Made by a program: the position numbers and the translations under genes. Under the pieces are notes generated by a model. The model did no database searches. It was not told the origin of the DNA and saw nothing but the letters and a program-made list of their open reading frames with translations. A DNA stretch of 64,000 bases from an uncultured Exiguobacterium sp. (GTDB lineage: Bacteria > Bacillota > Bacilli > Exiguobacteriales > Exiguobacteriaceae), in assembly GCA_913775715.1 (NCBI GenBank), contig CAJYMC010000007.1, positions 1,426,001-1,490,000 of the forward strand. The letters are read 5' to 3'. This document shows, one piece after another, positions 35,392 to 61,697 of this stretch. How positions within the stretch are numbered: the first letter of the stretch is position 1; each line of letters opens with the position of its first letter.

Positions 35392-35412
35392 CGCAAGAAG
35401 AACAAGACTTGA

Positions 35413-35504
35413 CGCCACTTCCCTCCGTAAGTACGAACTTAATCAGGTTCAAAGGGTCCGAACGTCTTCGTTCGTCTCAGTCAGCCTACTGACTCCCCTA
35501 GTGG
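35413..35504 (-). promoter_or_regulatory. TPP riboswitch (THI element)
   Basis: On the minus strand the conserved order ACTAGGGGAG, then CTGAGA, then ACCCTTTGAACCTGAT and finally CGGAGGGAAGTGG is present. This is the hallmark of the thiamin pyrophosphate aptamer. A terminator and then tenA follow, so high TPP should switch tenA off. Confidence 0.93.
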
Positions 35505-35524
35505 TCATTATTCGATTCCCATCC

Positions 35525-49764: not shown

Positions 49765-50040
49765 AATATAAAAAAATCCTCCACACAGCGTATGCTGTAT
49801 GGAGGACGATTATCTCGCGGTGCCACCTCTCGATTGGAACGGTTCGACCGCTCCCACTCTGTCTGATGCGTCTAAAAAGAAGAGACATCATAGCCTACGA
49901 TAACGGGGGCATCCGTCGCGACCTACTTCTTCGTTCAGCCACGCTCTCATGAGACCATTCACGAAACCTCGCCGTACGGAAGTCGCACCATTCTTCCGCT
50001 CTCTGAAACGCCGATGTTGTCTCGCTACTTAACTCACTCT
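49765..50040 (-). promoter_or_regulatory. T-box leader 1 (proximal) of the trp operon
   Basis: On the minus strand: AGAGAG bulge and GGTGCGA in stem I, CCCGTTATCG in stem II, T-box AGGTGGCACCGCG (49828-49816), then the terminator CCTCCATACAGC/GCTGTGTGGAGG with T7 just before trpE. A TGG triplet (49941-49939) lies on the 3' side of stem I and is a candidate Trp specifier. Uncharged tRNA pairing should prevent termination. Confidence 0.9.
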
Positions 50041-50054
50041 ACGATTTGTTTGAT

Positions 50055-50361
50055 TCGATTGTATACGAAAAGGGTCTTCTCGCCCATTCATGTAGAACAT
50101 GAAGGACGGGAAGACCCGCGGTACCACCTTCGTTGACGATGCTGACACCGTCCCCTTTGAAACGAACCGGACCGTTGTCCTGATTCGTCGACCCCGATAA
50201 CGGGAGGAACCCGTCAGAGCCTACTACCCATTGAAGGGATTCGGTCTGAAGCTCAGAAGGCCATTCGCTTGTTGCCCGATACTGATTCGCACCACCCATC
50301 AGCTCTCTTGAATCGTTTCACAAGTTACTTCTCTTCGTCTTTGCTATCGTGTGTTGAATTG
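50055..50361 (-). promoter_or_regulatory. T-box leader 2 (distal) of the trp operon
   Basis: A second complete T-box in series: AGAGAG bulge, GGTGGTGCGA, stem II CCCGTTATCGGG, T-box AAGGTGGTACCGCGG (50130-50116), then the terminator GGGTCTTCCCGTC...GGCGAGAAGACCC with T4. A TGG (50230-50228) lies on the 3' side of stem I; I am less sure that it is the specifier. Tandem T-boxes are known before trp operons in some Bacillus species. Confidence 0.88.
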
Positions 50362-60188: not shown

Positions 60189-60443
60189 ATGCGTATCATT
60201 GGTTTGCTCTCATTATTGATCCCCGGCATCGTCGGCGCAATCGGCATCAAGCTCATGCGCGACAGTGTCTTTCTAATTGCTCAAGTTCCATTTAAATACT
60301 TAGGCGATGCGGCTTACGTATATGTATTACAAGGTCTCGTCGGGTTGATTCTTGCGATGGGCGGCATTGGTTTTGTCGCAGGATATGTCTTTTATCGCGA
60401 CCGAAAACGTGGAAAAGTCTCTGACCGCTATCAAAAAAAATGA
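60189..60443 (+). CDS. oapA: DUF2627 membrane protein (YqzF; OLE-associated OapA family)
   Basis: 84 aa with two to three membrane helices (~4-22, ~44-68) and a basic C-terminal tail (YRDRKRGKVSDRYQKK). DUF2627 includes YqzF beside bkdR in B. subtilis and OapA, the membrane partner that anchors OLE RNA in Halalkalibacterium halodurans. ATG 60189 follows AAAGGAG. The gene faces a ~560-nt structured RNA on the other strand and shares its terminator. The symbol rests on the neighbouring RNA and family match. Confidence 0.75.
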   Translation: MRIIGLLSLLIPGIVGAIGIKLMRDSVFLIAQVPFKYLGDAAYVYVLQGLVGLILAMGGIGFVAGYVFYRDRKRGKVSDRYQKK

Positions 60444-60447
60444 ACAC

Positions 60448-61006
60448 AGAAAAAGGTCCCCATCTCTTGAACTCATTTCAAGCGCGGGACCTTTTACTCG
60501 TATAAAATTGGTTTCACTTACGGATGAACTCCTCTCATAGTTAGAACTATTCGTGTACTCCAAAACCTTAGGTGTTCCTCTTAATGAAGAGGTGGAAAGA
60601 AATCAGATCTGGCTATCGGGCTAACGATAGAATGGTATTTCAGTTCCATCATCTGACTGTACTCGGGACCTAGGTGGAGCGTAATGTCATCCGCTTGAAG
60701 CAGTCAAACATTCGGTTGCTAACAATCACTGCTAGACAACACTCCTTTTCACGAACTGTACTTTTCATTTTAGACGATCCGTTACCTTCCACTTTTCCCT
60801 AGCTTCGAAATCATGGAAGCTCCCATTCATTCGAGATTTCCCATCTAGAATGAACAAGATACCTTGGTACGACTTCTACCAAGAGAATGTCGTCCGGCAT
60901 TCTTGAGCCATTTACAGTTGGCGTTCTGAGATGATGTTCATCAACGGGATTTCCGGAGTCCTCGCCGACTCGACGTTCATCTGACGTCTTGCCAAATCAT
61001 TTGGTA
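60448..61006 (-). ncRNA. large structured non-coding RNA, probable OLE RNA
   Basis: A ~560-base stretch with no ORF on either strand, bounded by its own promoter (61012-61039) and terminator. On the minus strand it contains many short perfect hairpins: CCAAATGATTTGG, GACGTCAGATGAACGTC, GAGTCGGCGAGGACTC, CTTGGTA/TACCAAG, CTATCG/CGATAG and CCTCTTCATTAAGAGG. The terminator is GGTCCC with an inner CTTGAA/TTCAAG arm and GGGACC, then T5. OLE (ornate large extremophilic) RNA is ~600 nt and its hallmark neighbour is a DUF2627 protein, which lies directly beside it here. I could not compare it with the OLE model. Confidence 0.75.
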
Positions 61007-61011
61007 CCTTT

Positions 61012-61061
61012 ATTATAACAAACATTTCAGTTTATGCAATATTTATTTGTAAACGCTTTTA
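61012..61061 (-). promoter_or_regulatory. promoter of the large RNA with cre-like site upstream
   Basis: Minus strand TTGCAT (61039-61034), 16-base spacer, TATAAT (61017-61012). Directly upstream TGTAAACGCTTTTA (61048-61061, plus strand) matches the cre consensus at 13 of 14 positions and lies between this promoter and that of the rightward gene at 61119. Confidence 0.65.
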
Positions 61062-61118: not shown

Positions 61119-61697
61119 ATGCGAAAAATCATCGTATTCGAGCATCTATCGTTAGACGGTGTCATTCAAGCACCGAGCGATAAGACAGAAGATCCAAGTA
61201 ACGGTTTTACCCATGGTGGTTGGACTACTTCGTTCCAACATACTGAGATCGGTCAGGTCATCCGTAAATGGATGCAAGAAGATTGCTCCCTGCTGCTCGG
61301 TCGCGCGACTTACGAGCAATGGTCGAGTTACTGGCCGCTCCATGCAGATATCTGGCCAGTTGCCGATCATGCCATGAAATATGTCGCCACGCGTCATACA
61401 CCACCTATTCTTTGGCAGCCGACGACATATTTGAATCAACCGACTTCTGAACTAGAGCTTTTGAAACAACAGAACGGACCACCGCTTCACGTCTGGGGTA
61501 GTAGTGAACTCGTTCATGCACTGTATCAAGCGGATCTGATTGATGAACTTCGATTGATCCACTATCCGGTCATCGTCGGTTCTGGTAAACGTCTATTTCC
61601 CGGCAACGGAATGACGCCACTCACTTGGAACGTCACAAAACGACATACGTTTGATAATGGCGTGTTGATCGCTTGCTACGAACGGGATCGGAACTAA
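61119..61697 (+). CDS. dihydrofolate reductase / RibD C-terminal-like protein
   Basis: 192 aa. FEHLSLDGVIQAPSD at the N-terminus, LLLGRATYEQW (~66-76) and GSGKRLFP (~158-165) are typical of the RibD_C/DHFR-like YwjB-YyaP group, which are NADPH-dependent reductases with unknown substrate. ATG 61119 follows AAAGGAG. Monocistronic, divergent from the large RNA, with a terminator shared with spo0A downstream. Confidence 0.85.
   Translation: MRKIIVFEHLSLDGVIQAPSDKTEDPSNGFTHGGWTTSFQHTEIGQVIRKWMQEDCSLLLGRATYEQWSSYWPLHADIWPVADHAMKYVATRHTPPILWQPTTYLNQPTSELELLKQQNGPPLHVWGSSELVHALYQADLIDELRLIHYPVIVGSGKRLFPGNGMTPLTWNVTKRHTFDNGVLIACYERDRN

Follow-up and report, generated by a model that had tools for sequence, protein, structure and literature searches.

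A candidate new class of large structured noncoding RNA in the Exiguobacteriales, not recognisable as OLE RNA

The minus strand of the window (the whole 64,000-nucleotide stretch of Exiguobacterium DNA that was analysed) carries at 60447-61011, as aligned, a conserved structured RNA gene whose RNA would be about 556 nt long, with predicted ends near 61005 and 60450. From sequence comparison, we consider it very probable that this RNA represents a new class of large structured noncoding RNA that is not OLE and is known so far only from the Exiguobacteriales. Comparison supports an independent gene with its own predicted extended -10 promoter and terminator, a conserved minus-strand fold, invariant islands and one copy per genome, and we place it as a new class among the large ornate noncoding RNAs, a kind already known. 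The first-pass annotation of this DNA had placed here a large structured noncoding RNA on the minus strand with a promoter of its own, a proposal supported by the fold, the covariation and the conserved extended -10, and its coordinates for the feature were essentially right. The gene and its neighbours are as follows.

60447-61011, minus strand: structured noncoding RNA gene, found in 38 of 38 genomes with covariation; transcript predicted
60189-60443, plus strand: DUF2627 gene (PF11118, E 4e-26), a convergent neighbour only, found in this position in all 38 genomes
61119-61697, plus strand: RibD_C gene, on the other flank of the RNA region

Our sample of the order comprised 38 Exiguobacteriales genomes, 19 from the genus of the window and 19 from its sister genus. 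The DNA for the RNA was found in all 19 genomes of the window's genus at 74-100% identity, in six of them as two pieces owing to an insert, and the same element lies at the same place in all 19 genomes of the sister genus, whose loci were reached via DUF2627 (11 first, and 8 more fetched later). Mean identity is 88% within the window's genus, 90% within the sister genus and 58% between the two. Six genomes of the window's genus (G004, G013, G014, G015, G005 and G009) carry an array of units of about 10 bases, resembling AAGACCAAGC, between the 5' and 3' halves of the RNA; its copy number varies by genome, with AAGACC counted 8 to 18 times, which would bring the RNA to about 680-760 nt. A seventh genome, G018, has a short degenerate insert. 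The presence of such an array between the two halves points to a tolerant boundary there.

A model of the 5' domain (R1, 129 positions), which was the basis of the covariance-type search outside the order, gave one match per genome in all 38. Besides these 38 order members, it found only six weak matches in 398 genomes of the class (best E 0.001 per genome) and five in 398 genomes of the phylum, one genome (G051) being in both sets. The two best of these outsiders, G397 and G251, were examined and rejected, each match falling within a frame open from stop to stop. A search for 19 fixed bases around an invariant motif, matched exactly, gave 26 stretches in genome contigs, 24 of them from Exiguobacterium, and one viral contig; the matches in a Clostridia metagenome-assembled genome, in Thermoactinomyces vulgaris and in the viral contig were discarded as chance, four other conserved motifs being missing nearby. 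Neither the pattern scan nor the 5'-domain model, the latter run over 398 genomes of the class and 398 of the phylum, turned up a credible homologue outside the order, with the proviso that searches over more than 40 genomes ran with stricter filters, which distant relatives could escape. The plasmid and phage collections gave no match to the RNA. In Rfam 15 no family reached its gathering score in the region, and the sub-threshold matches were weak and unrelated in kind. In the open PMC literature no paper joined Exiguobacterium with 'OLE RNA' or 'candidate structured RNA', and among the matches listed none describes such an RNA in Exiguobacterium.

The same Rfam scan detected other RNA elements in the window. 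On the minus strand at 49799-50350 is a tandem pair of T-box leaders (124.6 and 116.4 bits), located upstream of frames that on reading resemble trpE, trpG and trpD; tandem T-boxes on trp operons are known. The aptamer of a TPP riboswitch (78.2 bits) lies at 35403-35509, also on the minus strand.

Folding of the minus strand was better than that of 100 of 100 shuffles (z -3.43), and the plus strand also folded better than all 100 (z -3.76), so that the call of strand needed other evidence. In each genus RNAalifold gives the minus strand the lower energy (-267 vs -231 and -250 vs -226), and G-U cells outnumber A-C cells by 292:26 and 250:8, a count biased by the prediction of the structures on the minus strand. 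These strand statistics and the extended -10 of all 38 genomes favour the minus strand.

Compensatory changes, as read from the alignments, support base pairing both within each genus and between the genera, and the covariation among Exiguobacterium homologues that had been put forward earlier as a check on the RNA was thus found. The per-genus alignments A1 and A2 hold all 19 sequences of each genus (18 distinct rows in A2). RNAalifold predicted 169 pairs for the sister genus, 15 of which show two-sided changes (shuffled mean 9.9, with 0 of 500 shuffles reaching the count, and at most 5 with slid partners), and 173 pairs for the window's genus, 23 of them with two-sided changes (shuffled mean 11.0, 0 of 500 reaching, slid partners at most 6). 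Since each of these structures was tested on the very alignment that had produced it, the cross-genus test matters more. On alignment A3 (20 of the 38 sequences, leaving out the six array-bearing genomes, G018 and near-duplicates), seven helices shared between the genera have two-sided changes in 14 of 35 pairs (shuffled mean 10.2, 1 of 500 reaching, 1-4 with slid partners); 98.7% of their cells are paired, and the covariation score is 0.374 vs at most 0.130 for slid partners. A second cross-genus test, on alignment A4 (21 of 38, in which three were kept of the six array-bearing genomes and G018), gave two-sided changes in 9 of 27 pairs (shuffled mean 5.2, 1 of 500 reaching, slid at most 2). 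The helices in both cross-genus tests were chosen by hand after viewing both genera, and the counts are of related sequences rather than of events, and the single divergence of the two genera accounts for many of them. In the sister-genus test and in both cross-genus tests, 'further pair types' were no more numerous than in shuffles.

The two genera do not share the whole fold. Several helices differ, such as a CUUGGUA/UACCAAG hairpin in the window's genus and a CGC/GCG hairpin in the sister genus, each of which faces a gap in the other, and the long 3'-domain helices can be matched between the genera only approximately, by where they lie. Most 3'-domain helices are nearly constant within a genus, and no covariation comes from them. 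A joint alignment of all 38 sequences gave a weaker model (-165 kcal/mol). The helices and motifs, in order along the RNA, are listed here.

60992-61004, minus strand: helix P1, CCAAA/UUUGG; 1 of 5 pairs two-sided between genera
60972-60988, minus strand: helix P2, GACGU/ACGUC, with loop CAGAUGA; 2 of 5 pairs two-sided between genera
60943-60966, minus strand: P3 hairpin with CCGG in its loop, the CCGG being invariant in A1 and A2
60929-60934, minus strand: invariant UCAUCU, complementary to AGAUGA in the P2 loop (60977-60982)
60907-60922, minus strand: helix P4, GCCA/UGGC; 2 of 4 pairs two-sided, a fifth pair that was tried failing in 10 of 21
60884-60903, minus strand: helix P5, AGAAUG/CAUUCU, with an ACGA in its loop conserved in most; 4 of 6 pairs two-sided, 100% of cells paired
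60786-60819, minus strand: helix P9, loop GAAGCUAG; inner part with 3 of 5 pairs two-sided between genera, 92% of cells paired
60735-60749, minus strand: invariant AAAAGGAGUGUUGUC with a Shine-Dalgarno-like core, in 38 of 38; no conserved frame seen after it
60513-60529, minus strand: 3' hairpin, UUCA/UGAA in the window's genus and AUCA/UGAU in the sister genus, after AGGAG or AGGGG; 1 of 4 pairs two-sided

The P3 stem is not the same in the two genera, but within each genus some of its pairs change on both sides (2 in the sister genus, 4 in the window's genus). Its loop CCGG is self-complementary, and we conjecture that it could form a kissing loop. A pseudoknot between UCAUCU and the AGAUGA of the P2 loop is possible from their complementarity; all six pairs are invariant in 21 sequences, and covariation speaks neither for nor against it. 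Two other pairings were put aside: an internal UUCUUUC-GAAAGGA pairing was dropped by hand, as it would cross another predicted helix, and the pairing UCAUCUC/GAGGUGA predicted by RNAalifold in the sister genus gave way to the covarying P5, though it stays an alternative in that genus. The motifs AAAAGGAGUGUUGUC, AGAUGA, UCAUCUC, UUCUUUC, UUCAUUAAGA and UCAUCCG are each present in all 38 sequences, and GAAGC(U/A)AG in 36 of them. The Shine-Dalgarno-like segments are notable in having no conserved long frame behind them.

No long frame lies between the DUF2627 and RibD_C genes. The longest frames across the RNA region, in 14 of the 38 sequences, are of 30-98 codons in sense and 34-108 codons in antisense and vary by genome, so that the earlier description of an ORF-free region of about 560 bases was nearly right: there are short frames only, and they differ among genomes. 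Translation could still be proposed for some short frame, which would make this a dual-function or coding transcript, and the best candidate is the following.

60494-60517, minus strand: seven-codon frame GTG-x-x-x-x-TAY-GAR-TAA near the 3' end of the RNA, behind an AGGAG-like motif, matched in 38 of 38

Its Tyr codon varies between TAT and TAC and its Glu codon is GAA or GAG in 37 of 38 genomes, as would suit a translated frame, and a one-base indel sits before the start codon. Against this, the frame has just seven codons, with no conserved longer frame (the short frame having been followed in 38 of 38 genomes and long ones in 14), it overlaps the 3' hairpin, and it admits non-synonymous changes (I/T, K/N, K/I and P/T, as well as E to T in G006). 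It would also leave 500 nt upstream unexplained, and we hold a coding role for this transcript to be decidedly improbable.

The predicted signals for transcription of the RNA are these.

61048-61061, minus strand: cre-like box (CcpA operator candidate), TAAAAGCGTTTACA, with one mismatch to TGWAANCGNTNWCA
61034-61039, minus strand: weak -35, TTGCAT, with a 16-nt spacer; compared with TTGACA, 3 mismatches in every one of the 19 genomes of the window's genus and 2 in 18 of 19 of the sister genus
61012-61020, minus strand: extended -10, TGTTATAAT; TGNTATAAT in 38 of 38
60450-60495, no strand assigned: terminator hairpin with U tract, from sequence and fold, conserved in both genera

All 38 genomes have a perfect TATAAT preceded by an extended TGn, in agreement with the minus-strand promoter proposed at the outset, though the -35 is poor. 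The terminator hairpin probably serves both the RNA on the minus strand and DUF2627 on the plus strand, and the earlier suggestion of a bidirectional terminator common to these convergent genes is consistent with its conservation in both genera (the search pattern missed G006, which was taken by hand). A simple generic scanner had neither the RNA promoter nor the terminator hairpin in its list, so both are drawn from sequence and conservation.

The cre-like site upstream was likewise recovered. Scored against TGWAANCGNTNWCA, which we take to be the cre consensus, the box has at most 2 mismatches in 28 of 38 genomes (19 of 19 in the sister genus, 9 of 19 in the window's genus), 3 in one further genome, and at least 4 in nine, all from the window's genus; matches with at most 2 mismatches occur in 2.9% of mononucleotide shuffles of the upstream stretch. 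The box overlaps the -35 in the sister genus and lies upstream of it in the window's genus. An operator that overlaps the -35 fits repression. From these matches, control by CcpA of the candidate cre-bearing RNA promoter is likely, but the nine genomes without the box indicate that carbon control is not universal. In place of the box, these nine have a segment containing AATATTC.

The position of the gene raises the question of whether the RNA is a cis element, either an extended 3' UTR belonging to spo0A or an antisense RNA reading into DUF2627. In 37 of 38 genomes spo0A precedes it on the same strand, and in all 38 it faces DUF2627, as such an element would. The RibD_C gene stands between spo0A and the RNA in just 9 of 38 genomes, and in genome G006 the RNA is present with no spo0A match within the fetched flank. 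Because the RNA is found despite the intervening RibD_C gene and in G006, it does not look like an appendage of spo0A. The extended -10 conserved in 38 of 38 genomes, the conserved terminator hairpin before DUF2627 and, by eye, a terminator-like hairpin after spo0A in several loci of the sister genus also oppose a cis element, making it a highly improbable account.

The same gene could instead be a base-pairing regulator of carbon-metabolism mRNAs, of the SR1/RoxS kind, acting via UUCUUUC or the Shine-Dalgarno-like motifs, with the rest of the fold providing stability. SR1 is a short RNA, unlike the RNA here, and was compared with it only through the Rfam scan; the present RNA is far longer and more elaborately paired than such small RNAs, and helices kept across a divide of 58% identity suggest that structure matters. 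On the other hand, the promoter has a CcpA-type box, UUCUUUC and AAAAGGAGUGUUGUC are present in 38 of 38 genomes, and SR1 of Bacillus subtilis, also from the Bacillota, is described in excerpts of PMC10898510 as glucose-repressed and partly coding. On balance, regulation by base pairing is somewhat unlikely as the action of this RNA.

The RNA is not recognisable as OLE, and no relation to OLE was found. The first-pass annotation had taken it for a probable OLE RNA, and the scan with the OLE covariance model that it proposed found nothing in the region with E set as high as 10. None of the 38 Exiguobacteriales genomes matched the model, and as a positive control 54 of 200 class genomes have OLE above the cut-off (gathering score 50 bits), each scoring 470-578 bits; given these scores, OLE is very well conserved. 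The same annotation had assigned DUF2627 to the family of OapA, which was wrong: the gene in the window matches only PF11118, and the OapA adjoining OLE in L026, the only OLE locus that was read closely, matches only CNNM, at 23.8 bits and under the cut-off of 28.4. Excerpts of PMC11332333 agree in describing OapA as CNNM-like. With the L026 OapA as query, no OapA was found in the 38 Exiguobacteriales genomes, a search that a very divergent OapA could escape, and the same query found it in all 10 of the OLE-bearing genomes tried, its gene following OLE immediately in nine.

The location differs as well. The OLE of L026 has an ispA-like gene on one side and OapA on the other. The gap between ispA and dxs in the window's genome, where OLE would be expected, is 118 nt, and the RNA lies beyond spo0A. 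Among the 200 class genomes, 35 have both OLE and DUF2627, 19 OLE only, 108 DUF2627 only and 38 neither (a weak OLE match in G139, at 22.9 bits and under the cut-off, was left out of this table). The two are on one contig in 24 of the 35, where they are about 10-50 kb apart and convergent with DUF2627 downstream in 24 of 24 cases. Since DUF2627 occurs without OLE in 108 of 200 genomes, or 10-50 kb away from it, adjacency to DUF2627 is no sign of an OLE partner, and the common neighbourhood of OLE and DUF2627 may explain why they had been associated. Outside the order, the gene facing DUF2627 is a GDPD gene, close behind it, in 7 of 7 loci checked (ten non-order loci were fetched from 143 class genomes with DUF2627, and seven of them checked).

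A very divergent OLE, beyond the reach of the Rfam model, might nevertheless be argued from the length (about 556 vs about 600 nt), the ornate fold and the related neighbourhood, with DUF2627 convergent to and downstream of OLE in the 24 same-contig cases, an ispA-like gene beside OLE in L026, and recN, dxs and ispA near the RNA in the window's genome. The silent model, set against the high scores of true OLE, the contrast in OapA (0 of 38 here vs 10 of 10 OLE genomes), the short ispA-dxs gap, and a comparison by eye in which the two RNAs have no common conserved motif beyond the six-base GCUAGG render it barely credible. The features that the RNA has in common with OLE (RF01071) are its large size, an ornate fold with invariant islands, its occurrence in Bacillota, the related neighbourhood and a possible link to carbon; being large, highly structured and conserved is common to other ornate RNAs and so is not diagnostic. 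OLE is further characterised by its localisation at the membrane and by its binding of OapA, OapB, OapC and bS21. Unlike OLE, it gives no model match, has no OapA that was found, lies at another site with other motifs, and has its own predicted promoter, with a cre-like box in most species.

GOLLD and ROOL are likewise large structured noncoding RNAs, and the possible self-complementary loop and the variable low-complexity array of some species of the window's genus resemble in kind a loop and the ROOL linker described in excerpts of PMC12286853. In contrast to these RNAs, the present one falls below every Rfam gathering score and occupies a fixed chromosomal locus with no phage or plasmid match. 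A replacement of 6S RNA (RF00013), which is also a structured regulatory RNA, was rejected, as RF00013 has no match in the region and an ordinary 6S RNA is present elsewhere in 38 of 38 genomes.

Returning to a new non-OLE class, we propose that, as long as a preferred sugar is available, CcpA would act through the cre-like box to repress the RNA, which in most species would then accumulate on poor carbon sources. A possible role, which we tentatively favour with rather less than even confidence, is that it serves in trans to scaffold a ribonucleoprotein or an RNA-only assembly. The invariant islands would then be protein or RNA contacts, possibly including contact with the translation machinery through the Shine-Dalgarno-like motifs, and the RNA would work like OLE without being related to it. 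Its adjacency to DUF2627 would reflect inherited gene order and the shared terminator. Excerpts of PMC10898510 report that H. halodurans lacking ole and oapA shows poor growth on most carbon sources other than glucose, and this gives a carbon role for a large RNA a precedent. A bolder analogy is that the Exiguobacteriales RNA does the job of OLE by convergence, as a sugar-depletion RNA that forms a homo-oligomer through its CCGG loop or a ribonucleoprotein, and tunes translation via its Shine-Dalgarno-like motifs; an anti-Shine-Dalgarno mimic and binding of bS21 are reported for OLE in excerpts of PMC12054373. We regard this as quite unlikely, and if true it would be a case of convergent evolution of large stress RNAs.

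Few bacterial RNAs are known to be this large and this elaborately conserved, and OLE, GOLLD and ROOL are mostly unexplained. A further class, to all appearances independent, that occurs in a stress-tolerant genus and is probably switched by carbon would offer a fresh system in which to study the function of large RNAs, and a new one in which to ask whether an unrelated RNA can fill the role of OLE.
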